Assembly (NCBI RefSeq): GCF_003014555.1
Contig: NZ_PYGE01000016.1
Span: 62,001-126,000, forward strand
From: Haloactinopolyspora alba
GTDB taxonomy: Bacteria; Actinomycetota; Actinomycetes; Jiangellales; Jiangellaceae
Reading direction: 5' to 3'
Length of the DNA stretch: 64,000 bases
Both the position numbers and the translations under genes were made by a program. Shown here one piece after another: positions 31,766 through 63,638 of the stretch (position 1 is the first letter of the stretch; each line of letters opens with the position of its first letter). A model generated the notes under the pieces. It did not search any database, was not told the DNA's origin, and saw only the letters and a list, made by a program, of their open reading frames with translations.

Positions 31766-32455
31766 TCAGGCAAGGCCGGGCGTGACGCCGCCGATGAGCC
31801 GCCGGGTCAGCCAGAGCGGTGACGTGATCGCGTTCCCGACGACGACGGCGTGTGCGCCGGCGTCCAGCGCGCGGGTGACGTCGTCGGACGTGCGGTACCG
31901 GCCCTCGGCGATCACCGGCACCGGGACGCGCGCCACCAGCGCGGCGAGCAGGTCGAGATCGGGCCCGTCCCGGCCGGTGGTGTCCGCGGTGTAGCCCGCG
32001 AGCGTCGTGGCAACCGCGTCCGCGCCCGCGTCCACGGCGGCGACACCCTCGTCGAACGTCGAAACGTCGGCCAGCACCAGGGCGGAAGTCGTCTCGTGGA
32101 CCGTGCGCACGGTGTCGGCGAACTCCTGCCCGTCCGGCCGGGGCCGTGCGGTGGCGTCGACAGCCACGATCGCGGCACCGGCGGCGGCCGCGGCGACCGC
32201 GTGCTCGGCCGTCGGTGTGATGGCCACCGGACCCGGGCCGTGCTTGATCAGGCCGATGACCGGGACGTCACAGAGCTCACCGACCGCGCGGATGTCGTCG
32301 GCACCGTTGATGCGCAGCCCGGCGGCGCCGCCGAGCACCGCACTGGCGGCGACCCTGGCCTGCACGTACGGGTCACGCATCGGGTCGTCGGGCTCGTCCG
32401 GCAGCGGCTGGCAGGAGATGACGACGCCGCCGCGCAGCTGGTCGATCGGGCTCAC
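31766..32455 (-). CDS. nanE: N-acetylmannosamine-6-phosphate 2-epimerase
   Basis: A TIM-barrel protein of 229 aa that converts ManNAc-6-P to GlcNAc-6-P. Family motifs are in order: GVVISCQPLPDEPDDPM, GLRINGADDIRAV, PVIGLIKHG with the catalytic-site Lys, AIVAVDATARPRP, ADVSTFDEG, VIAEGRYRTSDDV with the active-site Glu, and VVVGNAITSP. The GTG start overlaps the stop of the ROK kinase (GTGA), so the kinase and epimerase steps are coupled. It is the last gene of the leftward operon from 40517. Its product feeds NagA, encoded 22 kb away at 53596. Confidence 0.88.
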   Translation of the reverse strand: MSPIDQLRGGVVISCQPLPDEPDDPMRDPYVQARVAASAVLGGAAGLRINGADDIRAVGELCDVPVIGLIKHGPGPVAITPTAEHAVAAAAAGAAIVAVDATARPRPDGQEFADTVRTVHETTSALVLADVSTFDEGVAAVDAGADAVATTLAGYTADTTGRDGPDLDLLAALVARVPVPVIAEGRYRTSDDVTRALDAGAHAVVVGNAITSPLWLTRRLIGGVTPGLA

Positions 32456-33333
32456 GTCTCCTCCTCGGTCAGGTCCGCGGCGCCGACGGCGACGGCGTCC
32501 CCGCCGAGCCGCGCCGGTACCAGGGCCACGTCGGCGTGCGGGTCGAGCAACTCGTGGCGGTACGACTCCGTGGCCGCCTCGAGCACGCTCGGCGTGACGC
32601 CGCCGGCCAGCACCACGACGTCGACATCGAGCACGGCGACGCAGCCGGCCAACGTGCGGCCGAGCACGTCCGCTGCGTGGGCGAGGACACCGGCCGCCGC
32701 CGCTTCGCCCGCGTCGGCGCGGCGAGCGATCTCGTGCGCCGGGACGTGCTCCCCGCTGGACCGTGCGTACGCGTGCGCGATCCCGGTGCCGGAGGCGACG
32801 GCCTCCAGGTGGCCGTGACGCCCGCATCCGCACGGGTCGGCGGTCTCGCCGACGTACAGGTGCGCCAGCTCCGTCGCCGTCCCGCGCGGCCCGCGGCACA
32901 CCCGTCCGCCGACCACGAGCCCGCCGCCGACGCCGGTGCCCACGGCCGCGAGCAGCACCCGCCCGTGCTCGCGTCCCGCGCCGTGCCGAGCCTCGCCGAG
33001 CGCGGCGGCGTTGACGTCGTTGTCGACGCTGACCCGCCGGCCGGTGCGGTGGCGCAGCTCCGCAGCGACCGGGGTGCCCGCCCACCCGGGCAGGCTGTCG
33101 GTCGCGTACCGGACGACGCCGGTGCCCGGATCGATGGTGCCTGCGGTGCCCACGCCGACCGGGACGTCCGCGCGGGCCCCGAGGTCCCCGACGAGACCGG
33201 CGGCGTGGGCGAGCACCGCGTCGGGTCCGGAGCCCGCAGGCGTCGGTCCCGCCGACCGGTCGCGCACCGTCCCGTTCTCGACGAGCGCCGCGATCGTCTT
33301 GGTGCCGCCGATATCCACGCCGATCGCGGTCAT
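32452..33333 (-). CDS. ROK family sugar kinase (probable N-acetylmannosamine kinase)
   Basis: A protein of 293 aa. DIGGTKTIAAL (residues 6-16) is the phosphate-binding motif, DNDVNAAALGEARHGAG contains the catalytic Asp, and VGTGVGGGLVVGG is the second nucleotide loop. The zinc motif reads CGCGRHGHLE, so the usual third Cys (CxCGxxGC) is His. Zn binding may still occur, since His can replace Cys. The ATG overlaps the previous stop (ATGA) and the stop overlaps the nanE start. With NanE next to it, ManNAc is the likely substrate; glucose or GlcNAc cannot be excluded. Confidence 0.85.
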   Translation of the reverse strand: MTAIGVDIGGTKTIAALVENGTVRDRSAGPTPAGSGPDAVLAHAAGLVGDLGARADVPVGVGTAGTIDPGTGVVRYATDSLPGWAGTPVAAELRHRTGRRVSVDNDVNAAALGEARHGAGREHGRVLLAAVGTGVGGGLVVGGRVCRGPRGTATELAHLYVGETADPCGCGRHGHLEAVASGTGIAHAYARSSGEHVPAHEIARRADAGEAAAAGVLAHAADVLGRTLAGCVAVLDVDVVVLAGGVTPSVLEAATESYRHELLDPHADVALVPARLGGDAVAVGAADLTEEET

Positions 33334-34250
33334 CCCTTCAGCCCTGTCTGCGCGAGTCCCTCGACGAACTGGCGCTGCGCGAGCACGAACACCCCGAGCA
33401 CCGGCAGCACCGTGAGCGTGGTGGCGGCGAGCTGCACGTTCCAGATGGGGCCGCCGTAGGCGTCGACGTACTGGGTCAGCGCCAGCGGCAGCGTGAAGTT
33501 CTCCTTGCTGGACAGGAACACCAGCGGTTCGAGGAACATGTTCCACGACTGCATGAACGTGAAGATCGCGACGGCGGCGGTCGCCGGGCGGGCGAGCGGG
33601 AACGCGATGCGCCAGAAGATCCCGGCGCGGGTCAGCCCGTCGACCTTGCCGGCGTCCTCCAGTTCGGCGGGGAGGGTGAGGAAGAACTGCCGCATGATGA
33701 ACGTCGCCAGCACGCTGGGCGCTCCGATGATCGGGATGACGATCAGCGGCCAGTGCGTGTCGATCAGGCCCAGCGCGTTGACCATGCGGAACAGCGGCAC
33801 GATCGTCACCTCGATCGGGATGAGCATGCCGACGAGGACGACGATGAACAGCACGTTCACGCCCGGGAACCGCACCCGGGCGAACGCGTACCCGGCCATG
33901 GCGCTGACCAGCACGGTCCCGACCGTGACCACGGCGGCGATGTAGAGGCTGTTCCAGTACTGCTGCGCGAACGGTTGCAGCTCGAAGACCTGGCCGTAGG
34001 CGTCGAACGTCGGCGACGTGGGCCACAGCGTCGGCGGCAGCCGCATGATCTCGCTCATCGGCTTGAAGCTCGACGTCACCATCCACCACGTCGGGAAGAC
34101 GAACGGGACGGCCGCGACGATCATGACCACGAGCAGGACGATGCGCCCGATCGGGCGCCGCCTGCGCCGCCGCTCGCCGGAGCGACCGGCGTCGGCGTCC
34201 GCGCCGCTCGTCGCCGCGTCGTCCGGCGGCGAGGCGAGTTCAGTTCTCAT
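33330..34250 (-). CDS. ABC sugar transporter permease (MalG type)
   Basis: A protein of 306 aa starting at the ATG at 34250, which lies within the end of the upstream permease gene (11-bp overlap). An Arg-rich cytoplasmic leader of about 35 residues precedes six membrane segments. The EAA loop is DAGKVDGLTRAGIFWRIAFPLARP, with Lys in place of the usual Arg before VDG. The end TGLKG is typical for MalG-type permeases. It is part of the putative ManNAc-type sugar importer. Confidence 0.9.
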   Translation of the reverse strand: MRTELASPPDDAATSGADADAGRSGERRRRRRPIGRIVLLVVMIVAAVPFVFPTWWMVTSSFKPMSEIMRLPPTLWPTSPTFDAYGQVFELQPFAQQYWNSLYIAAVVTVGTVLVSAMAGYAFARVRFPGVNVLFIVVLVGMLIPIEVTIVPLFRMVNALGLIDTHWPLIVIPIIGAPSVLATFIMRQFFLTLPAELEDAGKVDGLTRAGIFWRIAFPLARPATAAVAIFTFMQSWNMFLEPLVFLSSKENFTLPLALTQYVDAYGGPIWNVQLAATTLTVLPVLGVFVLAQRQFVEGLAQTGLKG

Positions 34251-35178
34251 GGAAGACCCACCGTTTCCGGGTTTGCCACTGCACGAGTGTCAGCACGGCG
34301 ACGATGAGGAACAGCACGACGGACACCGCGCTGGCGTAGCCGAACTCCTTGAACTCGAACGCCTGCTGGTAGAGGTAGTAGACGAGCACCGTCGTGGACG
34401 TGCCGGGCCCGCCCTGGGTGAGCACCGCGATCTGCGCGAAGACCTGCAACGAGCCGACGATCGTCAGGATCGACACGAGCAGGATCGTGGGGCTGATCAG
34501 CGGCATCGTGATCTTCCAGAACGAGCGCCACGCGTTCGCGCCGTCCACGCGCGCGGCCTCGCGCAGCTCACGTGGCACGCCTTGCAGCGCCGCGAGGAAC
34601 AGCACCATGTTCAGGCCCACGTTCTTGAAGACCTGGACGATGACGACCGAGAGCATGGCGGTGTCCTCGCGGCGCAGCCAGTTCGGCCCGTCGACGCCGA
34701 GCTCGGCGAGGAACCCGTTGATGCCGCCGTCGGCCTGCAGCAGGAACCCCCACACGATGGTCCAGGCGACCAGCGACACCACGACCGGCGAGAAGAAGAA
34801 CGTCCGGAAGGTCGTGGTGCCCGGCAGCCGCTGGTTCAGCATCACCGCCAGCGCCAGGGCCAGGCTGACGTTCAGTACGACGAGCCCGGCGGAGAAGATG
34901 CCGGTCGCCTGCAGCGAGTCGACGAAGCTCGGGTCCGACAGCAGCCGCTCGTAGTTCTCCGCGCCGGAGAACGTGAACGTGCCCGCCAGCACGTTCCAGT
35001 CGTGCAGGCTGTACCAGACGACGGCGATCAGCGGCCCGATCACGAAGAACGCGCTGCCCAGCAGCTGCGGCGTGACGAACGCGTAGCCGGTCAGTGCGTC
35101 GCCGAGGCCGGCCCGGCGGCGCCGCGCGGTGCGGCGCCCCGGACCGGGCCGGCTCCCGGCGTCGATGGTGCTGGTCAT
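34240..35178 (-). CDS. ABC sugar transporter permease (MalF type)
   Basis: A protein of 312 aa from the ATG at 35178, nine bases after the binding-protein stop. A basic leader (RRTARRRRAGLG) is followed by six membrane segments. The EAA loop [24 protein letters not shown] and the downstream LTQGGPGTSTTVLVYYLYQQAF are the family hallmarks. It works with the permease at 33330 and the lipoprotein at 35187. Confidence 0.9.
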   Translation of the reverse strand: MTSTIDAGSRPGPGRRTARRRRAGLGDALTGYAFVTPQLLGSAFFVIGPLIAVVWYSLHDWNVLAGTFTFSGAENYERLLSDPSFVDSLQATGIFSAGLVVLNVSLALALAVMLNQRLPGTTTFRTFFFSPVVVSLVAWTIVWGFLLQADGGINGFLAELGVDGPNWLRREDTAMLSVVIVQVFKNVGLNMVLFLAALQGVPRELREAARVDGANAWRSFWKITMPLISPTILLVSILTIVGSLQVFAQIAVLTQGGPGTSTTVLVYYLYQQAFEFKEFGYASAVSVVLFLIVAVLTLVQWQTRKRWVFHEN

Positions 35179-35186
35179 GATGCGCG

Positions 35187-36503
35187 TCAGTCGCTCAGCA
35201 GCGGGGTGGCGGCTTCGCACACCGACGCCGTGACGGCCTCGACGTCCGCGTCCGCCTTCCACAGCGAGTCCAGCTCGGCCCGGATGGTCTGCTGGAGCTT
35301 GGCGAAGTTCGGGTGCGCCGGCTTGGTGACCGCGCCCTGGATGCCCTCGACGACGACCGACTGCAGTTGCTCGGCGCTGAGCTTCGGGTTCGCCGCCTTC
35401 AGCGTCTCGGCGTTCAGCAACGACGTCCGCGGCGGCGGGAAGTACTGCGCGAGCCGCTCGGAGTTCTCCGGGTTGGTGAAGTACGCCAGGAAGTCCGCGG
35501 CGGCCTCCGCGTTCGGCCCGTCGGCCAGCACGCCGATCCCGGCCTGGCCGATCACGTTCTGCTGCTGCTCCGGCCCGGCCGGCAGCGGCAGCAGGTCCCA
35601 GCCGAAGCTGCCGTCCAGCGCGGACGCGCGGCTGATCTGGGTCACCGTCATCGCGGCGTCGCCGGCGAAGAAGTCGGCCGTCGTTCCGGGTCCGGGGATG
35701 GCCGATTCGGTGAAGACCTGCTCGTGGAACCACGAGAGCGCGCCGACCATCTCGGGAGAGTCGAACTCGCAGCTCGTGCCGTCCTCCGACCACGGGCGCG
35801 CGCCCCACCCGTTCCAGATCGTGGCCAGGTTGCCCCAGTTGGAGTAGTTGAAGTCGCGGACGACGAGGCCGGACTTGCCGCTCTTCGCCGCCGCCGCGGC
35901 GGCCATGTCGGCGGCGGCGTCCCACGTCCACGTGCCGTCGGCGACCAGCTCCGCCGGCATCGGCTGTCCGGCCGCGGCCAGCTGGTCGGTGTTGACGAAC
36001 ACGCCGAACGGGCTGTTCGAGAACGGGTAGGCGTACAGCGCGTCGTCGGACTCCCACAGCCGCAGCGCGTCGCTGTCGAGGTCGTCGACCTGGTAGCCCT
36101 CGGTCTCCGAGAGCACCGGCCGCAGGTCCATCAACGCGCCGCTCTGGACGAACTCCGGTGCCGACGACTCGAAGATCCACGCCAGGTCCGGTGGGTTCCC
36201 GCCGGCGATCTGGGTGGTGAGGCCGGTCGTGTACTCCTCGAACGGCAACGTCTCGAACGTGACCGACGAGACCGTGTCGGCGTTCTCGGCCACGTAGGCG
36301 TCGGCGATCTCCTGGAACAACGCGAGCTGGGACTCGTCGGCGGTCCACACGGTCATCCGCAGATCGACCGGGCCGTCGGCGGACCCGCCTCCGGAGCCGT
36401 CGCCGGATCCCGACCCACACGCGCTCATGGTCAGGGTGGCCAGGACGGACATGGTGGCGAACACCCTTGCCCTTCGACTTCTACGCCACATGCGGTGCTG
36501 CAT
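35187..36503 (-). CDS. ABC sugar transporter, substrate-binding lipoprotein
   Basis: A protein of 438 aa. The signal peptide ends in LTMSAC, with Cys29 as lipidation site, and a Gly/Ser linker follows. The solute-binding family 1 fold shows in LRMTVWTADESQLALFQEIADAY, IAGGNPPDLAWIFE and ALYAYPFSNSPFGVFVNTD, and in FLAYFTNPENSERLAQYFPPPR near the end. AAGGAG lies five bases before the ATG at 36503. The co-encoded kinase and epimerase suggest it binds an N-acetylmannosamine-containing sugar or a glycoside that yields it. Confidence 0.9.
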   Translation of the reverse strand: MQHRMWRRSRRARVFATMSVLATLTMSACGSGSGDGSGGGSADGPVDLRMTVWTADESQLALFQEIADAYVAENADTVSSVTFETLPFEEYTTGLTTQIAGGNPPDLAWIFESSAPEFVQSGALMDLRPVLSETEGYQVDDLDSDALRLWESDDALYAYPFSNSPFGVFVNTDQLAAAGQPMPAELVADGTWTWDAAADMAAAAAAKSGKSGLVVRDFNYSNWGNLATIWNGWGARPWSEDGTSCEFDSPEMVGALSWFHEQVFTESAIPGPGTTADFFAGDAAMTVTQISRASALDGSFGWDLLPLPAGPEQQQNVIGQAGIGVLADGPNAEAAADFLAYFTNPENSERLAQYFPPPRTSLLNAETLKAANPKLSAEQLQSVVVEGIQGAVTKPAHPNFAKLQQTIRAELDSLWKADADVEAVTASVCEAATPLLSD

Positions 36504-36531
36504 CGAAACTCCTTCGTATGGCCGGGACGGG

Positions 36532-37854
36532 TCAGGAGACGTCGATGCGTATCGTCGTCTCGCACGACGCCGGCCGGCCGATCTCGTCGTGGCCGGTGTA
36601 GGTGAGCGTCACGGTGCGCTCGCGCGGTCCGGAGGGGCGCAGCATGATCCAGCCGTCGGTGTCCGGGGAGCCGGTCCGCAGGCCCACGACGTCACGCGGA
36701 TGGGCGTCGACATCGGTCAGCTCGAACCCGTACGGCCCGAGTGTCCCGTCGGGCAGTTCGACGTCGACGCTGACCGGCACGAGCGTGGGCCGGCGCCGGT
36801 CGTGGATCGTGGCCGGCGTCGCCGAACAGACCAGATCACGCGAGACGTCGTCCGTGGGCCGCAGGGTGCCCTTGGCGTGTCCGATGTCGGCCCTCAACCG
36901 GTGTCCGGCCTCGTAGAAGACGTGGAACTCGTCGCCATTCAGGTAGAACGTCGGGGCGGCCGAGCGTCCACTGTCCGGAGCGGTGTCCAGCGCGGAGTGG
37001 ACCCGTCCCAGCGGAACGTCGCGATCGAGCGCCGGTCCCACCTCACTCACCCACATGTCGCCGTCGCTGCCGTGGTAGACGACGACGGTCTTGCCGTTCC
37101 AGTCGAGCAGATAGGCGCCGGACGCGTTCTCGCGGTTGTGCGCGTTCGGCGTCACGAGCGGTTCGGGCTGGATCTCCCACGTGCGCATGTCGTCGGAGAC
37201 CGCCCAGCGGATGCGCCTGTCCCCGCTGAACCCGGGGTCGCCGATGTGGTCCATGAACGTCATCACGTACCGGTTGTCCATGCCCTCGACGCGGCGCTCG
37301 TAGACGCGCGCGTACGAGCTCTCCGGCCCGGTGATGGAGTCCGCCGTGATCGCCGGGCCGCCGTACGTCCAGTCGACGCCGTCCGTCGAGGTGGCGAAGC
37401 GGGTGACGTCGTTCTCACCGTGGAAGAACAGGAAGAACTGCTGCTCTTCCTCGTTCCAGATGACGTGCGGACTGGACACGTGGCTCACGTCGTAGTGCGG
37501 CTCCCACACATTGCTCACCAGCGGGTCGCCCGCGTACTCCGTCCACGGACCGTCCAGATCGTCGGCGTAGGCCATCGCGATCCCGCCGGGCCGTTCGTGC
37601 GGCGCGTAATAGAGGTAGTACTCGCCGAGCGGGTCCTCGAGGTAGTCCGCGGCCCGGACGACGCTCGGGAAGATCCGCTCACCGGTGGGGTCCCAGTCCG
37701 GCGCGGGCACCGGCAGATCGGTGTAGCCGAACTCCGGCAACAGGTCGGTGTGGGCCGGGACGTCGTCGGCGGCCGCCTGCGGCGCCATCGTGGCTGCCAG
37801 AGCCAGGACGCCGGTTGCCGCGGCGATCGCCCGCGGGGGTCTCGGAGCGCGCAT
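36532..37854 (-). CDS. Secreted GH43-like five-bladed propeller protein
   Basis: A protein of 440 aa with a Sec signal peptide ending near AAADD (residue 29) and CAGGAGG before the ATG. Repeated blade motifs such as YYLYYAPHERPGGIAMAYADDLDGPWTEY, HVSSPHVIWNEEEQQFFLFFHG and RIRWAVSDDMRTWE are those of the GH43/GH32/GH68 propeller group. The acids needed for a true glycosidase cannot be assigned with confidence. The C-terminal 100 residues form a beta-sandwich-like region (SVDVELPDGTLGPYGFEL). In the operon it is the only exported enzyme candidate, so it may release the sugar that the importer takes up. Confidence 0.7.
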   Translation of the reverse strand: MRAPRPPRAIAAATGVLALAATMAPQAAADDVPAHTDLLPEFGYTDLPVPAPDWDPTGERIFPSVVRAADYLEDPLGEYYLYYAPHERPGGIAMAYADDLDGPWTEYAGDPLVSNVWEPHYDVSHVSSPHVIWNEEEQQFFLFFHGENDVTRFATSTDGVDWTYGGPAITADSITGPESSYARVYERRVEGMDNRYVMTFMDHIGDPGFSGDRRIRWAVSDDMRTWEIQPEPLVTPNAHNRENASGAYLLDWNGKTVVVYHGSDGDMWVSEVGPALDRDVPLGRVHSALDTAPDSGRSAAPTFYLNGDEFHVFYEAGHRLRADIGHAKGTLRPTDDVSRDLVCSATPATIHDRRRPTLVPVSVDVELPDGTLGPYGFELTDVDAHPRDVVGLRTGSPDTDGWIMLRPSGPRERTVTLTYTGHDEIGRPASCETTIRIDVS

Positions 37855-37884
37855 CTCGTTCCTCCTGAAAAGGGTCGGAATTGG

Positions 37885-39483
37885 TCAGTAGCCGTACACA
37901 CCGTCGGGCCAGTGCAGTTCGATGCCCTCGGCCACCAGCGCCGACCGGAAGTCGGCGAGCGCGCGAGGGGTGTTGCGGACGGCGGACGGCGTACTCCGGT
38001 GCTCCAGGCAGTACGCGGCGAGACGGCCGGCGACCTCGCCGATGTTCCACTCCACCGGGTGCACGCGGTAACAGCCGTTGGTGATGTGCGTGGTGCCGAT
38101 GTTCTTGCTCGCCGGAAGCAGGTTCCGCATCCGCTGGGGGACGAGCGCGCCCAGCGGGATCTCGAACGGCTCGGCGGGGACGTCGAGGTAGTTGTCGCCG
38201 CCGGTCGACGGGTGCAGGTCGATCCGGTACATCCCGACGCCGACGGAGTCGTCGTACGAGACCGCGCCCTTGTCGCCGCGCGCGGCGCTGGACAGGTCCT
38301 GCTCGACGACCGTGTACTCGGCGCGGATGCGGCGCGACTCGCGCACGTACGGCGCTTGGGCGAGCCCCGTCGTGCTGCCGGTGACGTCACCGCGCAGCCG
38401 CAGCCCCGGGAAGCCGGTGCCGCCGTCGGCTCGCGGCGCCTCGGTCTGCATCCAGTACAGCACCGAGTAGGCCAGCTCCCGCGAGCCGGCGAGGTGCGCC
38501 TCGGCGTCCGGCACGTCGAACACCGGGCCGTCGAGGTAGTCGAGCATCGGCCAGTTCACCAGCGTGATGTCGCTGGGGTGATGCCCGGGAGCGAAGTTGC
38601 GGCGCGCGGCGATGCGCCGGAATGTCCAGAGGTCGTCACCTCCCGGGTTGATCCGCTGGTCGGCCAGGACGCTCTGCGGGTCGTCGTCGGGGTTCGGGGT
38701 GAACGCGCGACGCACGGTCTCCAGCGTCCGCGGGTCGGGTGCGGTCCACGACAGCAGCCGGTCGCCCCAGAACGGCGGCTGGTAGGCGCGCCAGTAGTCG
38801 TAGCTCGCGGGCCGGTCGATGGTGTGGTCGCCGTCGACGTGGTCGATCGCGAAGCAGTACGAGACCGCCTGCATGTTCAGCGGCTGTGCCACGTCCGGGG
38901 CGTTGGGCTCACCCGTGTCGGCTCCGGACTCGAATCCGGTGACGTACTCGGCGCCGGTCAGCGGCAGCAGCTCGCCGGTCTCGGTGGCGTCGACGACGTA
39001 GGCCGCCTCGACCGTCGTCGTGGCGCCGTCGTGCTCGTGCCGGACGGTGACCGCGCGGACGGTGTCGCCGTCGACGTCGGCGTGCACCGGCCGGGTCGGT
39101 TGCAGAACGGTCAGCCGCCCGGCCGAGCGTGCGGGCGCGAGCATCGACTCGATGACCGCGAGCGCGACGCGGGGCTCGTGACACAGCCGGGAGACGTAAC
39201 CGGCGCCCGGGTTGAGGTCGGCCTGGGCGCGCGCGGCGTCGGTCAGCGGGAAGTTCGCGCGGTAGTAGTCGCGGACGCGGTCACGCAAGGTGCGGTAGGT
39301 CGCGGTCACGCCGAACTCCTCGACCCAGGAGTGCTCGTCCGGCGGAACCGCCTGGGACGTGAGCTGCCCGCCGAGCCAGTCGTACTGCTCGGTCAGCACC
39401 ACCGAGCGCCCGGCGCGTAGCGCCGCGACCGCGGCCGCGACACCACCGAGGCCTCCGCCGACGACGAGTACATCTGTGCGCAC
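37885..39483 (-). CDS. FAD-dependent oxidoreductase (FAD_oxidored family)
   Basis: A protein of 532 aa. VLVVGGGLGGVAAAVAALRAG (start of the protein) is the Rossmann dinucleotide motif, and VVDATETGELLPLTGAEYV is the second FAD contact typical of the FAD_oxidored family (PF12831 as I recall it). The C-terminal part NIGTTHITNGCYRVHPVEWNIGEVAG matches the conserved end of that family, with FAD-contacting residues. There is no signal peptide, so it acts in the cytoplasm. The start GTG overlaps the LacI stop by one base. Its place in a ManNAc-type operon suggests oxidation of the imported glycoside before cleavage, which is inference. Confidence 0.8.
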   Translation of the reverse strand: MRTDVLVVGGGLGGVAAAVAALRAGRSVVLTEQYDWLGGQLTSQAVPPDEHSWVEEFGVTATYRTLRDRVRDYYRANFPLTDAARAQADLNPGAGYVSRLCHEPRVALAVIESMLAPARSAGRLTVLQPTRPVHADVDGDTVRAVTVRHEHDGATTTVEAAYVVDATETGELLPLTGAEYVTGFESGADTGEPNAPDVAQPLNMQAVSYCFAIDHVDGDHTIDRPASYDYWRAYQPPFWGDRLLSWTAPDPRTLETVRRAFTPNPDDDPQSVLADQRINPGGDDLWTFRRIAARRNFAPGHHPSDITLVNWPMLDYLDGPVFDVPDAEAHLAGSRELAYSVLYWMQTEAPRADGGTGFPGLRLRGDVTGSTTGLAQAPYVRESRRIRAEYTVVEQDLSSAARGDKGAVSYDDSVGVGMYRIDLHPSTGGDNYLDVPAEPFEIPLGALVPQRMRNLLPASKNIGTTHITNGCYRVHPVEWNIGEVAGRLAAYCLEHRSTPSAVRNTPRALADFRSALVAEGIELHWPDGVYGY

Positions 39484-40517
39484 TATCTCCCCCTTGGGTT
39501 CGGTTGATCCGGTTGTTCCGGTGGGACGAGGGTTCCGCGGTCCGTGACCTCACACGGCAACAGCCGCTGGATGTCGGTGTCCTCGCCGCGGAGCAGCGCC
39601 GACAGGATGTCGACGGCCTGCGCGCCCATCTCGCGGCGCGGGATGCGGAAGCCGGTGAACTCACGGTCGGACCCGTCGGCCATCGGGTCTCCGAGCGCGA
39701 CGACGGACAGCTCGGCGGGCACGCGCATCCCGCGTGCCTCGGCCGTCTCGGCGAGCGCCGTGGCGGCCGCGTGCTCCTCGGCGAAGACCGCGGTGACACC
39801 GGTGTCCAGCAGGAAGTCGAGGATCTCGGCCGTCGGGCGCCGCCCGTCGTCGTGCCGGCGGCCACCGGCGGAGCTGAAGCCGCGCAGGCGGTCGACCGCG
39901 GACTCGGCGCCGCCGCCCGGCCCGACGTAGGCGAGCTCTCGGTGGCCCAGAGCGTGCGCGCGTTCGACGAGCTCCGCGGTCGCTTCGGCATAGCCGGCGC
40001 CGACATAGGGGACCGGTCCGTGCGCGTCGTCGCGGCGGCCGACCGCGATGTAGGGGTGGGCCTCGTCGTTGAGCCGGGCGAGCTCGTCGGCCGGGATCTC
40101 GCGGCCCAGTAGGATGCATCCGTCGGCCAGCCGCAGCCGGTTGTTCTCGTGGAAGATGCGCCGTCCCTGGCCCGTGGGTGCGCTGGTGAACAGCAGCAGG
40201 TCGCAGCCCAGCTGCTCCGAGCTCTCCTCGATGCCGACGAGGAACGGGTGGAAGAAGTCCGCGCTGGTGCTCGGGAACACGCGTTCGTAGGTGAAGACGC
40301 CGAAGATCTGGTTGTGCTGAGCGAGCAGCCGTCGTGCGACCGGGTCGGCGACGTAGCCGGTCTCGTTGATGACGCGCAGGACGCGGTCCCTGGTCTCCTG
40401 CGAGATGCGCACGCTCGGCAGGTGCCGGTCGTTCAGGACCATCGAGACGGTGGTCTGGCTGACCTGGGCGAGCCGCGCGATGTCGCGCTGGGTGAGGCGT
40501 CCGGAACGGGTCGGCAC
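39483..40517 (-). CDS. LacI family transcriptional regulator of the ManNAc-type operon
   Basis: A protein of 344 aa. I chose the GTG at 40517 because AAGGGAG lies eight bases upstream; a start at 40571 would add unrelated residues. The helix-turn-helix LTQRDIARLAQVSQTTVSMVLNDR is at residues 8-31 and is followed by the hinge. The sugar-binding core has IFGVFTYERVFPSTSADFF, GCDLLLFTSAP, AYVGPGGG and VVALGDPMADG. It heads the operon that it probably controls, ending in TAG joined to the GTG of the oxidoreductase. The DUF4127 gene at 41026 is divergent and may be under the same control. Confidence 0.88.
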   Translation of the reverse strand: MPTRSGRLTQRDIARLAQVSQTTVSMVLNDRHLPSVRISQETRDRVLRVINETGYVADPVARRLLAQHNQIFGVFTYERVFPSTSADFFHPFLVGIEESSEQLGCDLLLFTSAPTGQGRRIFHENNRLRLADGCILLGREIPADELARLNDEAHPYIAVGRRDDAHGPVPYVGAGYAEATAELVERAHALGHRELAYVGPGGGAESAVDRLRGFSSAGGRRHDDGRRPTAEILDFLLDTGVTAVFAEEHAAATALAETAEARGMRVPAELSVVALGDPMADGSDREFTGFRIPRREMGAQAVDILSALLRGEDTDIQRLLPCEVTDRGTLVPPEQPDQPNPRGR

Positions 40518-41025
40518 CTGCGGCTCCCTTCGATTGATAATGCGCAACTTCAGCGCGTGTACCGAGGACACTGCAGCGCCCGGAATGGCCGTGTCAAGAC
40601 GTGGAGCCGGTGATAATCCGAATTAGTACAGCGGCAACCCTTGACGCCGCTGTGCCGCGCCGTCGAAAGTCAACGCACCGAGGCCGACCCCCCGGAAGGT
40701 TCACGGCCCGAGGAACGAGTCACCACGGAGAGGAGATCGTCGTGATGCTCACGCCACGTCGAGACGGAGGAGGTCCGGCGTCGTGGCCGGTGCCGCCGCC
40801 GACGCCGTCGACGAGGCGACCTTCGAGTGCTCGAGCCTCTACCCGACGCTGTACGGCTGGTGGGACATCGTCGCGGACGTGTTCGCGCAGCAGCCGCGGG
40901 CCCGGGAGCCGCACACGAACCCGCGTGGCAGCGCATGCTGCGCAGCGACGGCTGACCACCGGTGCCGCCGTTTCCGGCGCCGTCCACGACCTCGTCCGAC
41001 CTGACGGAAAAGGTGATCCACGCTG
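40518..41025. other. Divergent control region with a decayed gene fragment
   Basis: These 508 bases lie between the LacI operon and the DUF4127 gene. Two copies of TGATAAT-N-CG, at about 40534 and 40611, are 77 bases apart; the second sits beside the palindrome TAATCCGAATTA (40614-40625). These are weak operator candidates. The rest contains the fragment described at 40743-40955. No intact gene is supported. Confidence 0.4.
40743..40955 (+). pseudogene. Possible frameshifted gene remnant
   Basis: A strong ribosome site (GGAGAGGAG) precedes an ATG at 40745, but that frame soon becomes Arg/Pro-rich. In the next frame a protein-like stretch appears (ATFECSSLYPTLYGWWDIVADVF, positions 40822-40890), and in the third frame a natural-looking end PAWQRMLRSDG stops at 40955. 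This order fits a gene C-terminus broken by two single-base shifts. I do not recognise the family. Chance cannot be excluded in high-GC DNA. Confidence 0.35.
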
Positions 41026-42744
41026 ATGTCCGTTCATCGTTCAACCGCGCTCGCCCGAATGCTGGCGCTGTCGACCGTCTCGGTGCTGGCCGCCGGAGCC
41101 GGCCTCGCGACACCCGCCGCCGCGTCGCCGGAGCCGGGCGGTTCCGCGCCCGGCCCGTCGGCGCCCGCGCCGGAGCACGGTTCCGAGCTGGCGATCGTCC
41201 CGCTGGACGACCGTCCGGCGAACACGTACTTCCCGGAGATGACCGCCGCGGCGGCCGATGTCGGCACCACGTTCCCGCCGGACGAGGCGATCGGGACGTT
41301 CACCACGCCGGGCGACGGCGCCGCCGTCGGCGACTGGCTGCTCGAGCAGGACGACGCGGACGGGTACGTGGTCTCGGTGAGCATGCTCGCCTACGGCGGG
41401 CTGATCGCCTCACGCACCGGCACGCTCTCCGAGGAGCAGGCGCGTGAGAACGTGGCCGCCCTGCGCGAACTGCGCGCCCAGAACCCCGGCACCCCGATCT
41501 ACGTCTACGACACCATCCAGCGCCTGGCCGTCACCTCGCTGGGTGAGGACGCGGTGGACCTCTACGACCTGATCCGGCGCTGGGCCATCCTGGTCGACCG
41601 GGTCGAGAACCTGGGCCAGGAGGAATACCGCGCGGAACTCGAGCAGGTCCGTTCGCAGATCCCGGACGACGTCCTCGAGGACTATCTCGCCGCCCGCGCC
41701 CGCAACCACGAGATCAACCGGCTGCTGGTCCGCTGGGCCGCCGAGGGCGTCATCGACCACCTGGTGCTGGCCCAGGACGACGCGGCGCCGTACGGGCTGC
41801 ACCGCGCCGAGCGCGAGCAGCTGGCGGACCTGGTCGAGCAGCTCGGCGCCGGCGACCGGGTGCAGATCTTCCCCGGTGCCGACGAGGTCGACGCGACGCT
41901 GATCAGCCGGTTCGTGCTGGAGCAGCGGGACGTGCGCCCGACGGTCAGTGTCGAGTACTCCGGGGTGGACGGCGCCGACTGGACCGCCCCGCTCGAGGAC
42001 ACCACGTTCGACGTGAACATCTCCCGGCACGTCCGGGCCGCCGGCGCGGTCCCGGTCGACGAGGGCGGCGACATCCGACTGATGGTGAACACGCCGTCGG
42101 CCGACGGCAGCGACCGCGGGGCCGACCTGGACGCGTTCGTCGACCGGATGGCGTCGTTGCAGGCCGCCGGCGAGGACGTCGTCGTGGTCGACGCGGTCGA
42201 GGTGAACCGCGCCGACGCGGCGCTGGTCGAGCGGATGGAGTCCGAGGTGTCGCTGAGCGGGCTGCTCGCCTACTCGGGCTGGAACACCGCCGGCAACTCG
42301 CTCGGCATCGCGACCGGGCACGGCTTCGCCCGGTGGGGCCTGCTGCAGCGGCCGGGCGATCGCAGCGTTCCCGCGCTGGCGGAGGCCGCCGGTGCGCACG
42401 TGTCGTACCTGCTGCACCGGTACGTGCTCGACGACCGCTGGAAGAACGTCGTCCAGCCCGACGCCTACGAGTTCGCCCGTGACCGCGGGTGGAACGTGTT
42501 CGGCCTGACCCCGGAGCAGACCGCGACCATGCAGGACCGGGTCCGCGACGCGCTCGTGCCGCTGACCGAGGCGTTCTACACCGAGCACTTCGCCGGGCGG
42601 ACGGTGACCGTCGGCCGGCGTGGTGAGCACACGTTCACCGGGGTGATCGACGGCCTGGACGCGGTGGACGTCGCGCTGCCGTGGCCGCGGCTGTTCGAGA
42701 CGGAGCTGGAGCCGGAGGTCGCGTTGAGCTGGCCCGCGCCCTGA
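41026..42744 (+). CDS. Exported DUF4127 family protein
   Basis: A protein of 572 aa with an N-terminal signal (LALSTVSVLAAGAGLATPAAA) and a Pro/Ser linker. The mature part begins with the family motif IVPLDDRPANTYFPEM. It continues with SVSMLAYGGLIASRT, NHEINRLLVRWAAEGVIDHLVLAQDDAAPYGLHRAE, FPGADEVDATLISR and YSGWNTAGNSLGIATGHG. DUF4127 (PF13552) has no established function; the conserved Asp, Arg, Asn and His suggest an enzyme. It is divergent from the ManNAc-type operon, and a second cytoplasmic relative lies at 56331 in the NagAB regulon. A role in amino-sugar or glycoside breakdown is inferred from that double association. Confidence 0.8.
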   Translation: MSVHRSTALARMLALSTVSVLAAGAGLATPAAASPEPGGSAPGPSAPAPEHGSELAIVPLDDRPANTYFPEMTAAAADVGTTFPPDEAIGTFTTPGDGAAVGDWLLEQDDADGYVVSVSMLAYGGLIASRTGTLSEEQARENVAALRELRAQNPGTPIYVYDTIQRLAVTSLGEDAVDLYDLIRRWAILVDRVENLGQEEYRAELEQVRSQIPDDVLEDYLAARARNHEINRLLVRWAAEGVIDHLVLAQDDAAPYGLHRAEREQLADLVEQLGAGDRVQIFPGADEVDATLISRFVLEQRDVRPTVSVEYSGVDGADWTAPLEDTTFDVNISRHVRAAGAVPVDEGGDIRLMVNTPSADGSDRGADLDAFVDRMASLQAAGEDVVVVDAVEVNRADAALVERMESEVSLSGLLAYSGWNTAGNSLGIATGHGFARWGLLQRPGDRSVPALAEAAGAHVSYLLHRYVLDDRWKNVVQPDAYEFARDRGWNVFGLTPEQTATMQDRVRDALVPLTEAFYTEHFAGRTVTVGRRGEHTFTGVIDGLDAVDVALPWPRLFETELEPEVALSWPAP

Positions 42745-42754
42745 CTCCTCATGA

Positions 42755-43339
42755 TCATGGGAGGACGATGCGCCGCACGCTGTCACGGAGCAGCGTGCGG
42801 CGCTGCTCGTGCAGGTCCGCCGGTTCCTCGGCGGTGGCGGCGTAGACGTTGCTGACCGGTGACCAGGCCATGGACATGGCGATCACCATGGCCATCAGGT
42901 CGAACGGGTCGCCGTCGCGGACGAGCCCCGCCGCCTGCGCGTCGGAGATGGCGCGCAGCTTCGCGTCGTCCATGCGCTCGGCGTCGTCGACGAGGTGCCC
43001 GGCCGGGCGCCGTTCCAGCCGGGCCCAGGTGGCCAGCCGGATCAGGTCCGGACGGCGCAGGTACTCGTCGTAGAGGCGCACCGCCCAGTCGGCGAGATCG
43101 GTGGCGTCGATCGGGACGACGTTCATGATCCGTTCCAGCGAGCCGAAGAAGATGGCGTCGAACAGCCCTTCCTTGCTGCCGAAGTAGCCGTAGAGCTGGG
43201 CCTTGTTGGTGCGAGCCTCGGCCACGATCCGCTCGACGCGCGCTCCGGCGATCCCGTACTCGGCGAACTCCCGGGTCGCCACGTCGAGAATGCGCTGCTT
43301 CGTCGCCTCGCCGCGTGAGGTCAGGGGCTTGTCCGCCAT
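42755..43339 (-). CDS. TetR family transcriptional regulator
   Basis: A protein of 194 aa. The helix-turn-helix REFAEYGIAGARVERIVAEARTNKAQLYGYFGSKEGLFDAI is canonical for TetR, including the YGYF recognition turn. The C-terminal part is a helical ligand and dimer domain with LIRLATWARLERRP, seen in TetR proteins near oxidoreductases. It is divergent from the alcohol dehydrogenase at 43436, and two related palindromes lie between them. Its stop codon falls in an ATGATCAT palindrome next to the DUF4127 stop. Autoregulation and control of the dehydrogenase are likely. Confidence 0.88.
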   Translation of the reverse strand: MADKPLTSRGEATKQRILDVATREFAEYGIAGARVERIVAEARTNKAQLYGYFGSKEGLFDAIFFGSLERIMNVVPIDATDLADWAVRLYDEYLRRPDLIRLATWARLERRPAGHLVDDAERMDDAKLRAISDAQAAGLVRDGDPFDLMAMVIAMSMAWSPVSNVYAATAEEPADLHEQRRTLLRDSVRRIVLP

Positions 43340-52749: not shown

Positions 52750-52793
52750 CCGGGATGTCGGAGCACGCTAGATTGTGACTGCAACCGATTGCA
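52746..52793 (+). promoter_or_regulatory. nagBA promoter with LacI operator at the start site
   Basis: TTGACC (52746-52751), a 17-base spacer and TAGATT (52769-52774) form a strong promoter. The 14-base palindrome TGCAACCGATTGCA follows at 52780-52793, over the predicted transcript start, so bound repressor would block initiation. Confidence 0.75.
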
Positions 52794-52816
52794 CATCCGG
52801 TGCTGCCGAAGGACGG

Positions 52817-53599
52817 ATGGTCGTGAGGAACGAGCGCGCGCGGGCCGGCGCGACGACGGTGTCCCCGACGGCCGGGGAGGCCGCCGCCTCTGCCGCGACG
52901 GCGGCGGCCGAGGTGATCGTCACGGCGGTGGCCGAGCGCGGCAGCGCGACCGTCGTCTTCGCGAGTGCGCCGTCCCAGGAGCTCATGCTGGCCGCCTTGG
53001 GCGCCGACCCACGTGTCGACTGGACGCGGGTGCGCTCCCTGCACATGGACGAGTACCTCGGCCTGGACCACGACCATCCCCAGGCGTTCGGGCAGTGGCT
53101 GCGGGACCGGTTGCCGGCCGAGGCGTTGCCCGGGCTGCACCGCATCCGTGCCGACGGCGACCCCGAGGCCGAGGCGCGACGCTACGCGGAGCTGGTCGCC
53201 GCCGGGAATGTCGACCTCGTGTGCCTGGGGATGGGCGTCAACGGGCACATCGCCTTCAACGAGCCGGGGATCGCCCGATTCGACGACGACGCCCTGGCGC
53301 GGGTCGTGGAGCTCGCGGAGGTCTCCCGGATCCAGCAGGCGGACGAAGGGCTGTTCCCGTCCGCCGACGACGTGCCGACGCACGCCATCACCCTCACGGT
53401 GCCCGCTCTGCTGGGGGCGCGGACGCTGGTGGCGACCGTGCTCGGTGCGCAGAAGGCCCGTGCCGTCGCGGATGCGCTCGAGGGGCCGGTCACGCCGGAA
53501 TGTCCCGCGAGCGCACTGCGGACCCACGCCGACGTGTCGGTGCACCTGGACGACGGCGCGGCGACGATGCTGACGGCGTCGTCCGGTGAGCTGCAGTGA
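52817..53599 (+). CDS. nagB: Glucosamine-6-phosphate deaminase
   Basis: A protein of 260 aa that converts GlcN-6-P to Fru-6-P and ammonia. The ATG at 52817 has GAAGGA upstream; longer starts would lie in the operator. Family motifs are VVFASAPSQELMLAAL (phosphate loop, normally xSGGSTP-like), LHMDEYLGLDHDHPQAFGQWL with the catalytic Asp, CLGMGVNGHIAFNEPG with the ring-opening His, and THAITLTVPALLGARTLVATVLGAQKARAV. NGHIAFNEPG with Asn is the form I recall from Gram-positive NagB. It is coupled to nagA by a GTGA overlap and controlled by the LacI site at 52780. Confidence 0.87.
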   Translation: MVVRNERARAGATTVSPTAGEAAASAATAAAEVIVTAVAERGSATVVFASAPSQELMLAALGADPRVDWTRVRSLHMDEYLGLDHDHPQAFGQWLRDRLPAEALPGLHRIRADGDPEAEARRYAELVAAGNVDLVCLGMGVNGHIAFNEPGIARFDDDALARVVELAEVSRIQQADEGLFPSADDVPTHAITLTVPALLGARTLVATVLGAQKARAVADALEGPVTPECPASALRTHADVSVHLDDGAATMLTASSGELQ

Positions 53600-54666
53600 C
53601 ACCGGAGGGGAAGCCCGTGCGCACGAGCGGAACCGTCACCATCCCCGGGCTGGTGGACCTGCAGGTCAACGGATACGGCGGCCTCGACGTCAACGCCACG
53701 GACGTGGACGCCGAGACGATCATCGAGCTCACCCGCGCGATGTGGCGACAGGGTGTCACGACGTTCCTCCCGACGGTGATCACTGCTGCCGAACCGGCGG
53801 TGACCCGGGCGCTGCGCGCCGTCCGGGAGGCGCGGTCGGGTGACCCGCTGGTGGCGCACACGATCGCCGGCGTGCACGTCGAGGGCCCGGCGGTGAACAC
53901 CGACGACGGTCCTCGGGGTGCGCACGACGCGAGGTTCGTGCGCCCGCCCAGCCTGGCCGAGCTGGACCGGTGGCAGGACGCCGCGGACGGCCTCGTGCGC
54001 GTCGTCACCCTCGCGCCGGAGACCGACGGCGCGCTGGAGTACGTCGCCGGCGCCGCCGAGCGAGGAGTGCTGATCTCGCTCGGGCACTGCGCACCGGAGC
54101 CGGACCAGGTCCGTGCCGCGGCCCGTGTCGGGGCCACACTGAGCACGCACCTGGGAAACGGGACCCACGGCATGTTGCCTCGACACCCGAACCACGTCTG
54201 GGCCCAGCTCGCCGAGGACGCGCTGACGGCGATGTTCATCGCCGACGGCCACCACCTGCCGGCGGACACGCTCACGGCCATGGTCCGGGCCAAGTCGCCC
54301 GAGCGTAGCGTCCTCACCTCGGACGCCGCCGCCCTGGCCGGATGCCCGCCCGGCGAGTACCGCACCCCCGTCGGCGGCAGCGTCACCGTGCGCGCCGACG
54401 GACGGCTCGGTCTCACCGGGACCGACCTGCTGGCCGGGGCGGGCGCGTCGCTGCTGGCCTGCCTCGACTGGGCGTGGGAACGGCTGCCGTTCGATCCGGC
54501 GACGACGCTGGCGATGGCCACCGTCAACCCCGCCCGCGTGCTCGGCGTCGGCGAGCGGGCACGAGCCGCGGCGGACGGGGGCGACGTAACGGTCCTGGAT
54601 CGCGCCGACGGGGTGAGCCGCGTCGTGGCCACCCGGCTCGGCGACACCGAGGTCTACGTCGCCTGA
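53596..54666 (+). CDS. nagA: N-acetylglucosamine-6-phosphate deacetylase
   Basis: A protein of 356 aa that removes acetate from GlcNAc-6-P. GLVDLQVNGYGGLDVNA, GVHVEGPAVN (metal Glu), LISLGHCAPEPDQ and STHLGNGTHGM (metal His residues), ADGHHL and VLTSDAAALAGCPPGEYRT (catalytic Asp) follow the NagA order. HLGNG and LGHC differ from the usual HLFNAM and GHS. The N-terminus is short: only about 17 residues precede GLVDLQVNG, where most NagA proteins have about 50, so the small beta-sandwich is reduced. The GTG at 53596 overlaps the nagB stop; the GTG at 53617 with GGAGGGG is an alternative. Confidence 0.87.
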   Translation: MTPEGKPVRTSGTVTIPGLVDLQVNGYGGLDVNATDVDAETIIELTRAMWRQGVTTFLPTVITAAEPAVTRALRAVREARSGDPLVAHTIAGVHVEGPAVNTDDGPRGAHDARFVRPPSLAELDRWQDAADGLVRVVTLAPETDGALEYVAGAAERGVLISLGHCAPEPDQVRAAARVGATLSTHLGNGTHGMLPRHPNHVWAQLAEDALTAMFIADGHHLPADTLTAMVRAKSPERSVLTSDAAALAGCPPGEYRTPVGGSVTVRADGRLGLTGTDLLAGAGASLLACLDWAWERLPFDPATTLAMATVNPARVLGVGERARAAADGGDVTVLDRADGVSRVVATRLGDTEVYVA

Positions 54667-54682: not shown

Positions 54683-55030
54683 TCACCGCGTGGTCCGGCG
54701 GGCACGGGTGTTGTACTCGCGCGCGACGTCGAGCCAGAAGGACAGGTCGTCGTCGGTGGCGAGTGCGTCCGGGACGACGTGGATCCAGCCCGGTCCCATG
54801 GACCGGCCGGTGCCCATCTCCGCCTGTGTGGCCCCGGCGAGCGCGAGCAGCTCGTCGTGGCGTGCCGGATCGATGCGGACCAGCAGGACGTCGTCGCGGC
54901 CCACGGCGACGAGTATCTTCTCGTCGACCATGAAGGACAGGCCGCCGAACATCGACACCTCGCGCGTCGACGGTTCGCCGCTCAGCGCCGCCCGGACCCG
55001 GCCGGTGAGCGCGGTGGGTGTGCTCGTCAC
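54683..55030 (-). CDS. TfoX/Sxy N-terminal domain protein
   Basis: A protein of 115 aa. VRAALSGEPSTREVSMFGGLSFMVDEKILVAVGRDDVLLVRID is the TfoX N-terminal domain, with the conserved MFGGxxF motif. The protein ends with a helix and a basic tail (FWLDVAREYNTRARR). In actinobacteria these short forms are not linked to competence; their function is unknown. It is last in a leftward run with the NTF2, SRPBCC and ArsR genes. Confidence 0.85.
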   Translation of the reverse strand: MTSTPTALTGRVRAALSGEPSTREVSMFGGLSFMVDEKILVAVGRDDVLLVRIDPARHDELLALAGATQAEMGTGRSMGPGWIHVVPDALATDDDLSFWLDVAREYNTRARRTTR

Positions 55031-55046: not shown

Positions 55047-55412
55047 CTACGGGCTCGGCGGGGCGTAAGACAGCCGGTCGAAGACCAGCACGCTCTCGGT
55101 GATGATGCCGTCGCGCACGGTGAAGTACTCGGCGGCCACCGCGGTGCGGGTCGCGGCCGTCTGCGGGTAGTAGAAAAGCGCCACGTGGTCGCCGTCGGCG
55201 AAGCTCGCGATGTCGGTCAGCCCGGTCAGGTTTGGCACGAAACCCGCCAGATACCGCCGGTAGGCGTCCTTGCCGGTCAGTTCTTCGCCTGGCGCGTGGC
55301 AAACGAAGTCGTCGGCGAGTTTCGTCATGGCCCGGTCGATGTCGCCGCCGGTCCAGGTCCGGTGATAGTCCAGGACGGTGTCGAGAGCGGTGGCTTGGGA
55401 CGTGCTGGTCAC
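55047..55412 (-). CDS. Nuclear transport factor 2 family protein (SnoaL-like)
   Basis: A cone-shaped alpha+beta protein of 121 aa. DTVLDYHRTWTGGDIDRAMTKLADDFVCHAPG and LTGKDAYRRYLAGFVPNLTGL, then HVALFYYPQTAATRTAVAAEYFTVRDGIITESVLVFDR, are typical of the SnoaL/NTF2 group. The GTG overlaps the SRPBCC stop (GTGA). Members bind small hydrophobic ligands or act as isomerases or hydrolases; nothing in the sequence fixes the substrate. Confidence 0.85.
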   Translation of the reverse strand: MTSTSQATALDTVLDYHRTWTGGDIDRAMTKLADDFVCHAPGEELTGKDAYRRYLAGFVPNLTGLTDIASFADGDHVALFYYPQTAATRTAVAAEYFTVRDGIITESVLVFDRLSYAPPSP

Positions 55413-56210: not shown

Positions 56211-56244
56211 GACACTCCTCGGGGACGGGTGTCCGCAGACTAGC

Positions 56245-56268
56245 ACAAATATTCATTTGTATATTTGT
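56245..56268. promoter_or_regulatory. ArsR operator candidate
   Basis: ACAAATAT (56245-56252), eight bases, and ATATTTGT (56261-56268) are a perfect inverted repeat in an AT-rich island. AT-rich palindromes of this kind are typical for ArsR-family sites. Confidence 0.65.
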
Positions 56269-57722: not shown

Positions 57723-57822
57723 CTCGGCGTCCGAGCACGCCCCGATCGTGCGGGCGTAACCGCCAGTGTTGGGGCGTTCGTCGGGGCGGGAGCAGGGCGA
57801 TGCGCATCGGTCTCCTCACGTG

Positions 57823-61368: not shown

Positions 61369-61398
61369 GACGTCCCACCCAAACCGAAGGAAGCCGTC

Positions 61399-63629: not shown

Positions 63630-63638
63630 CGAATCACC

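Follow-up and report, generated by a model that had tools for sequence, protein, structure and literature searches.

The stretch of DNA considered here, 64,000 nucleotides of Haloactinopolyspora alba (contig NZ_PYGE01000016.1, positions 62,001 to 126,000 of the forward strand; below, the window, whose own numbering is used throughout), contains two genes of DUF4127 (PF13552), a family to which Pfam assigns no function, and we focus on the first of these, copy A, and on the operon that diverges from it. A profile search found exactly two PF13552 genes in the 5.5 Mb genome, both within the window, and both are near-full-length members well above the Pfam cut-off of 27 bits, copy A scoring 445.7 bits over nearly the whole profile and copy B 382.9 bits. 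The open reading frame (ORF) of copy A occupies 41026-42744 on the plus strand and encodes 572 amino acids; an earlier reading of the sequence alone (the sequence-only reading) had given the same coordinates, which are confirmed. Its N-terminus, judged by eye, is signal-peptide-like and of the exported type. Alignments of 11 and 74 sequences bring out the conserved motifs of the family, PLDDRP, GGLIASR, QDDA, PGADE and GWNTAGN, which are found in copy A, and all 25 residues that are invariant in the larger alignment are present in its row (row 1).

All genes of the operon, from lacI to the gene for NanE, lie on the minus strand and diverge from copy A. The first encodes a LacI-family regulator (39483-40571; PF00356 and PF13377), and its last base is the first base, a 1-base overlap, of the gene for a flavin adenine dinucleotide (FAD)-dependent oxidoreductase of the PF12831 family (37885-39483; 360 bits), the flavoprotein in what follows, whose relatives in the PDB are short FAD-motif matches and nothing beyond. 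Then come an exported glycosidase-like protein (36532-37854), with weak matches of GH32, GH43 and GH130 type in Pfam, NCBIfam and the PDB; the solute-binding protein (SBP) of an ATP-binding cassette (ABC) importer (35187-36503; PF13416 and PF01547); two permeases of the importer (both PF00528), one at 34240-35190, its start approximate and its match covering residues 540-718 of a long ORF at 34240-36420, the other at 33330-34250; a ROK-family sugar kinase (32452-33333, start set by eye; PF00480, 185.8 bits); and NanE, N-acetylmannosamine-6-phosphate 2-epimerase (31766-32455; PF04131, 152.8 bits). No NanE other than this one, some 8.6 kb away from copy A, was found in the genome; a 12-row profile that combines it with 11 relatives matches the solved NanE chains 4utt and 4utu at 301-305 bits. 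The sequence-only reading had described an exported DUF4127 protein divergent from a NanE/ROK/ABC operon, a description borne out by the ORF, the N-terminus as seen by eye, the strands and the Pfam matches.

The nan operons for the catabolism of sialic acid and N-acetylmannosamine (ManNAc) comprise nanA-nanT-nanE-nanK and nagA-nagB. Two of their hallmarks, NanE and a ROK kinase, are present in the window operon, and the likeness extends to their clustering with an importer, a regulator of the RpiR or LacI type and, in some cases, nagA-nagB. Unlike them, the window operon has no sialic-acid lyase and has the flavoprotein and DUF4127 instead; it also differs in using an ABC importer with an SBP_bac_1/8-type binding protein, and relatives have GH38, GH84, GH20 or GHL10 genes. 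By Pfam, no N-acetylneuraminate lyase (NanA, PF00701 type) was found in the 10 ORFs that cover the operon (31766-43339), nor in 20 further ORFs of the window, a scan that leaves out some ORFs between 44507 and 56246. A sialic-acid operon was considered for the window and rejected on this lack of a lyase.

The divergent order is kept in a congener (genome G001, locus L103), where DUF4127 is followed by lacI, the oxidoreductase, SBP, permeases, ROK (recognized by eye in the translation) and NanE, and where identity to the window proteins is 84% for the oxidoreductase, 75% for NanE and 70% for LacI, the neighbours overall lying at 70-85%. The exported glycosidase-like protein has no match in the G001 operon or in any of the 80 loci of the first sample described below. 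The G001 DUF4127 (L103:1-1401), truncated by the contig end, has by eye a twin-arginine (Tat)-like signal. Between lacI and copy A lies an operator-like palindrome, GATAAT-NNNN-ATTA(TC), at 40612-40627, at a distance of 41 bp from lacI and about 400 bp from copy A; with as many as 3 mismatches allowed, the window holds this single match, which is on the side of copy A, against 0.02 expected. G001 carries it in the corresponding intergenic region (L103 1446-1461), and among 153 loci its core is present only in those that cover the window and G001 sites. The palindrome could be a LacI-type operator that serves both directions. A search of the window for an operator shared with copy B or with nagAB found none.

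We examined the neighbourhoods of DUF4127 genes in two samples. For the first, a profile from the 11-row alignment was searched against genome contigs and the best 80 of 267 relatives were taken with up to 10 kb on each side; genes were called by script and clustered, observed counts were obtained by phmmer with the window proteins at E 1e-5, and expected counts came from Pfam profiles (NanE above the cut-off, PF12831 at E 1e-20) in the genomes of all loci except L026, 79 in number. NanE lies near DUF4127 in 13 of the 80 loci against 0.354 expected (65 genes above the cut-off in 62 of 79 genomes), the flavoprotein in 14 against 0.84, this expectation being a lower bound since no more than 19 candidates per genome were scored (at least 203 genes in 68 of 79 genomes), and ROK in 12. 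An epimerase or epimerase-like gene is found in 25 loci, namely 13 with NanE, 10 with TIM22, a TIM-barrel protein remotely resembling NanE (hhalign probability 90%, 15% identity), and 2 with an AGE-type gene, a class detected in this sample by clustering alone; 14 of these 25 have it directly beside DUF4127 on the same strand. Two unrelated epimerase families appear in the same role, NanE on the one hand and the GlcNAc (N-acetylglucosamine) 2-epimerase type PF07221 on the other, which adjoins DUF4127 in L056 and L067 and lies about two genes off in L097 and L099-L101. TIM22 stands in NanE's place in L022 (9141-9899), in nine more first-sample loci and in L102, L127, L128, L135 and L137, in Paenibacillus, Evansella and others, and may possibly be a new epimerase family; NanE was not returned by a PDB profile search with TIM22. 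A Pfam scan of 140 of the 245 neighbour genes of 33 loci, chosen since most carry the cluster, included 6 Gfo/Idh-type oxidoreductases.

The second sample was drawn by order and not by neighbourhood, from 249 genomes spread evenly over the order of G361 (Alkalihalobacillus). DUF4127 was found in 44 of them, and 43 were used, G361 itself being part of the first sample; counts were made with our own profiles at E 1e-8. The PF12831-type flavoprotein is present in 36 of the 43 loci, a count that stands without a genome-wide background, ROK in 29, NanE in 23, TIM22 in 4, GH38 and GHL10 in 13 each, and NagA and NagB in 5 each. Whole-genome counts give expectations of 0.18 for NanE and 0.23 for nagA; in all five of the latter loci nagA-nagB is on the DUF4127 strand, and each of the five nagA genes is also a curated TIGR00221 match. 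In 14 loci the flavoprotein gene immediately adjoins DUF4127 on the same strand, as NanE or TIM22 does in 7. When 122 of 133 otherwise unlabelled cluster genes were scanned, permeases and SBPs were commonest, followed by AXE1-type esterases (12), mannose-6-phosphate isomerases (3), GH3 (2) and GH20 (2). The glycan-related genes of DUF4127 clusters include GH38, GH84, GH20, GH3, GHL10, AXE1 esterases and mannose-6-phosphate isomerases. The 25 commonest families of each neighbour tally, beyond which there are 66 and 50 rarer ones, include no sialic-acid lyase. The flavoprotein is as frequent a partner of DUF4127 as NanE, or more so, and the sequence-only reading had assigned it no role. The sequence-only reading had expected nag and nan genes to be enriched near DUF4127, and had named a lack of such enrichment in other genomes as its refutation; the counts for NanE in both samples and for nagA in the second show enrichment, and the linkage to amino-sugar genes is seen in Bacillota, Chloroflexota and Actinomycetota.

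The linkage is unevenly spread over the family. DUF4127 occurs in 9 of 22 examined genomes of the source organism's order and is rare in the wider class (13 of 296 genomes, 12 of them above the cut-off), 9 being in the source organism's own family; a single-protein search of viral contigs found no relative. On a tree of 86 proteins, built by a quick method, the epimerase label is strongly clustered, requiring 10 changes where shuffled labels need 27 on average. All 25 epimerase-bearing loci of the first sample fall among the 34 loci of two tree groups, and another set of 34 rows, mainly Armatimonadota, has none. We therefore limit the amino-sugar linkage to part of the DUF4127 family, and the broader proposal of the sequence-only reading, that the family as a whole acts on amino sugars, goes too far. 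Armatimonadota DUF4127 genes (L045, L046, L060, L062, L066, L071, L073, L077, L092 and others) are, by eye, repeatedly close to ruvA/ruvB, which may reflect either another function or plain synteny. Copies A and B fall in different clades, and a recent duplication giving rise to both was rejected on that ground. The clade of copy A comprises G001 and five Clostridia/Bacillota (L015-L019) with DUF4127 of the exported type; in these five the gene (at about 9.8-11.5 kb of the locus, in L019 at 6.8-8.3 kb) has a conserved place beside dacF-spoIIAA-spoIIAB-sigF and SLH-domain genes, as seen by eye. The two copies are thus not two independent associations of one kind, as had been proposed, since they belong to different clades and the nearest relatives of copy A outside its genus lie beside what look by eye like sporulation genes. 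Signal scoring of the 33 epimerase-linked rows besides copy A, which had entered the script without its signal, gave none for 26, left 5 unscored and found 2 signal-like (L103 and L029, the latter with a probably over-long start). That exported, epimerase-linked copies are limited to the source genus was considered and dropped, as there are four more; exported DUF4127 in flavoprotein-bearing clusters is found, by eye, in the source genus and in L127, L128, L135 and L137 of the second sample.

Copy B, on the minus strand from 56331 to about 57807, has no signal peptide that can be seen by eye, and the suggestion that one copy acts outside and the other inside the cell fits the N-termini of both. 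Its ATG (57807), which has a good ribosome-binding site, is in a frame that differs from the rest of the gene; the frame changes in a C-rich run (57780-57810) at about codon 8, just ahead of the first family motif. Because the start codon with its ribosome-binding site sits in a different frame, copy B would appear to contain a sequencing or assembly error or else to be a damaged gene. The sequence-only reading had placed it in a NagAB regulon. The nagB-like (52775-53599) and nagA-like (53596-54666) genes, so named from their best NCBIfam matches, are on the plus strand, and their labels fall below NCBIfam's own cut-offs (nagA 180 against 225.65 bits, nagB 114.7 against 236.9 bits). Four minus-strand genes, at 54683-55030, 55047-55412, 55409-55882 and 55875-56246 (by eye TfoX-N-like, SnoaL-like, AHSA1/SRPBCC and ArsR), separate nagA from copy B, which is convergent to nagA and divergent from a 2-hydroxyacid dehydrogenase gene. 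Membership of copy B in a nagAB unit is rejected on the strand and the intervening genes, and the genes called in four loci of copy-B type (L097, L099, L100 and L101) include no NagA or NagB match either.

The closest relatives of copy B are in another genus of the family, with 68% identity to the L101 copy, and copy-B-type relatives lie near an AGE-type GlcNAc 2-epimerase gene (PF07221), L101 having also an enolase-superfamily gene. Copy B is best described as a cytoplasmic-type paralogue of another clade, possibly damaged. In L097, two large exported-looking proteins (L097:5778-8822 and L097:3313-5739) with no Pfam family above cut-off follow the copy-B-type DUF4127. The genome of the window has one strong AGE gene, at window-equivalent 66560-67813, just past the window end, and one weak match elsewhere. 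It is part of a run of GntR, SBP, permease, permease, enolase superfamily, SDR, AGE and GH92 genes from 60649-64000 on to about 70338 window-equivalent (L109 4650-14339), which, judged from gene content, looks like a set for alpha-mannan use.

An AlphaFold model of the mature part of copy A (527 residues) has a mean predicted local distance difference test score (pLDDT) of 95.5, and of 95.9 for residues 5-402. Strands and helices alternate, a pattern that raised a TIM-barrel glycosidase as a possible candidate, with a helical insert and a C-terminal part of helices and sheet; fold matches of the model suggest that DUF4127 consists of two alpha/beta lobes. In both lobes of the model, many of the 25 residues invariant in 74 sequences sit after the C-terminal ends of strands, a placement that is consistent with one active site. 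The best match of the whole model is 2i5b (Z 8.0, 200 residues, 5.1 Å), and the best for the 398-residue core (residues 5-402) are 8zbc (Z 8.5, 171 residues, 4.0 Å) and 9cbq (Z 8.3, 108 residues, 2.9 Å); Foldseek gives best E values of 5.4e-4 (whole) and 2.1e-4 (core), with a template-modelling (TM) score of about 0.2. There is partial likeness to SGNH acyltransferases, sugar-binding proteins and B12-type domains at Z of about 6.5-8.5, the usual background, and lobe 1 matches several SGNH entries at Z 6.5-8.5 over 153-174 residues, within that same background. NCBIfam has no model that matches either copy. A Pfam scan of the 74 members at E up to 1 found nothing recurrent besides DUF4127 (the next, DUF3023, in 4 of 74); in eight members scanned for fused domains (the seven longest and L085) there is no second family save a weak Lig_C in L055 (E 0.0088), and residues 1-638 of the L058 reading frame have no match.

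Judged from gene content, the importer, glycosidases, flavoprotein, DUF4127, kinase, NanE and, in some cases, nagAB describe a route for N-acetylhexosamine glycan catabolism. We see an even chance that copy A is an enzyme of the LacI-controlled uptake and degradation of an N-acetylhexosamine-containing oligosaccharide, acting before ROK and NanE. In such a route, extracellular glycosidases together with copy A would trim the glycan outside the cell, and the ABC importer would bring the fragment in. A cytoplasmic DUF4127, the form of most relatives, often with the PF12831 flavoprotein, would then convert the unphosphorylated fragment into a free ManNAc-type sugar, most likely by breaking a glycosidic bond. 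The ROK kinase would phosphorylate the free sugar, NanE would convert ManNAc-6-P into GlcNAc-6-P, and NagA and NagB would feed the product into glycolysis. The last two steps, those of NanE and of NagA and NagB, are established knowledge of these families, and the kinase step is drawn by analogy with NanK; AGE-type epimerases act on the free sugar. We infer LacI control, an unphosphorylated substrate, the action of DUF4127 before the kinase, and bond breaking. An unphosphorylated substrate is suggested because both exported and cytoplasmic DUF4127 occur in flavoprotein-bearing clusters, and action before the kinase, on an unphosphorylated sugar, because AGE replaces NanE in some loci and exported DUF4127s exist. 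Glycosidic bond cleavage is most likely the step left over by the known members of the cluster. Since GH38, mannose-6-phosphate isomerase and AXE1 genes occur in the clusters, the glycan may also hold mannose and acetyl esters.

Several observations weigh against this proposal. No NanE, NanE-like barrel, AGE or flavoprotein gene is found in 53 of the 80 loci of the first sample, and 7 of the 43 loci of the second have no match to flavoprotein, NanE, TIM22 or AGE; the first sample has NagB in 0 and NagA in 1 of its 80 loci; and the flavoprotein is absent from 8 of the 13 NanE loci (L024, L029, L036, L068, L078, L081, L083 and L094), some of which are cut by contig ends. NanE is absent near DUF4127 of L015-L019, the closest relatives of copy A outside the genus. 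The linkage statistics treat genomes as independent, and relatedness inflates the p-values. TIM22 has no Pfam match (two members scanned singly), and its best PDB profile matches are short HisA-type pieces at E 0.009. At the locus itself, the putative operator lies far closer to lacI than it does to copy A, and a search of the palindrome region for sigma-70-type promoters yielded none. In G001 the neighbours have diverged far less than DUF4127 itself, which shares no more than 42% identity with copy A and no longer has GWNTAGN or the Glu of PGADE; because of this low identity and these losses a catalytic role for it is doubtful, and at this locus the position of DUF4127 is better conserved than the protein. 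Finally, searches of the PDB with the copy A sequence and with the 74-row profile gave no usable match, and neither the whole model nor the core has a full-length fold match. The comparison with known glycosidases and deacetylases that the sequence-only reading had called for thus yielded a confident model and no full-length match to such a fold, an absence that does not amount to exclusion; with neither a solved relative nor a full-length fold match, a bond-cleaving reaction is without fold support.

Given how frequent the flavoprotein is, above all in the second sample (14 of 80 loci; 36 of 43), an oxidized intermediate is a serious rival, even if we consider the full oxidative route unlikely. 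Here the flavoprotein would oxidize an N-acetylhexosaminide at C3, and DUF4127 would beta-eliminate the activated bond or re-add water, with the consequence that the stereochemistry at C2 is scrambled and a 2-epimerase is needed without sialic acid. The recurrence of 2-epimerases of different families, with sialic-acid-lyase families outside the 25 commonest, would agree with this, as would the Gfo/Idh-type oxidoreductases of some clusters (6 of 140 neighbours), and PMC10628242 offers a precedent in beta-eliminases that act on 3-keto-glucosides. The known eliminases of that paper have a Mn site, however; C3 oxidation is a guess, as the solved matches of the window flavoprotein are limited to the short FAD motif; and the 8 NanE loci listed above do without the flavoprotein. 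We likewise think it rather unlikely that DUF4127 and PF12831 form a new two-enzyme system for redox-assisted cleavage of N-acetylhexosamine glycosides (oxidation, elimination, rehydration), releasing both ManNAc and GlcNAc so that NanE, a NanE-like barrel or AGE is needed without sialic acid, with a two-lobed new catalytic fold. As for the C3-oxidation/beta-elimination pathways of AtOGE and PuCGE described in the same paper, PMC10628242, the likeness is that a gene set for glycoside degradation pairs an oxidoreductase with another enzyme; they differ in that the DUF4127 route would handle an N-acetylhexosamine and comes with a C2 epimerase, a comparison made by description and not by sequence.

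Just as unlikely as the oxidative route, to our judgement, is a DUF4127 that cleaves no glycosidic bond and acts as an isomerase, epimerase or esterase, trimming an unusual amino-sugar modification before the kinase. The clusters are rich in AXE1 esterases (12 of 122 genes without another label), and the resemblance of lobe 1 to SGNH acyltransferases and esterases (Z 6.5-8.5; 8zbc, 2q0s, 7toj, 2wao) would favour it, but models of this kind usually reach Z near 8 as background, matches to a GDSL model are limited to 2 of 74 members (best E 0.054), and the catalytic Ser block that an SGNH/GDSL esterase has after strand 1 is not encountered, the conserved block being P-L-D-x-R-P with no Ser. That DUF4127 is no enzyme at all and serves as a sugar-binding, sensing or structural protein is improbable: parts of the model do superpose on periplasmic sugar-binding proteins (Z about 7-8), an exported form exists, and the G001 copy keeps its place despite its lost active-site motifs, while the 25 invariant columns of the 74 sequences (Asp, Arg, Glu and the GWNTAGN stretch) look catalytic and the clusters already possess their own SBP. 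A coincidental neighbourhood of copy A in the source genome, to which the sporulation-gene setting (by eye) of its clade mates outside the genus, L015-L019, might point, is very improbable, as G001 keeps the divergent arrangement with a conserved operator-like palindrome in the gap, the operon NanE is the genome's only one, and the same set of partners occurs in many other genomes.

The preferred reading, that copy A belongs to the degradation of an N-acetylhexosamine-containing oligosaccharide, joins a pathway end that is already known to a DUF4127-flavoprotein step that is new as far as we have searched. The open-licence literature yielded no mention of 'DUF4127' or 'PF13552' and, by titles and abstracts, no description of a DUF4127 cluster (with NanE, flavoprotein, GH38, ROK or alpha-mannosidase; acetylmannosaminidase), and neither there nor in Pfam or the PDB did we find a function or solved structure for the family. 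In Cwp19, GHL10 (PF02638) is reported to be a lytic transglycosylase domain acting on peptidoglycan (PMC6016235); DUF4127 clusters repeatedly contain GHL10 genes, which are neighbours, not relatives, of DUF4127. For the DUF4127 family, found in Bacillota, Actinomycetota, Chloroflexota and Armatimonadota, the analysis offers a specific pathway together with a partner enzyme that often accompanies it and a handful of candidate substrates. The clusters hint, furthermore, at a route to ManNAc that does not start from sialic acid, and such a route would matter for soil and alkaliphilic bacteria that feed on cell-wall or capsule glycans.

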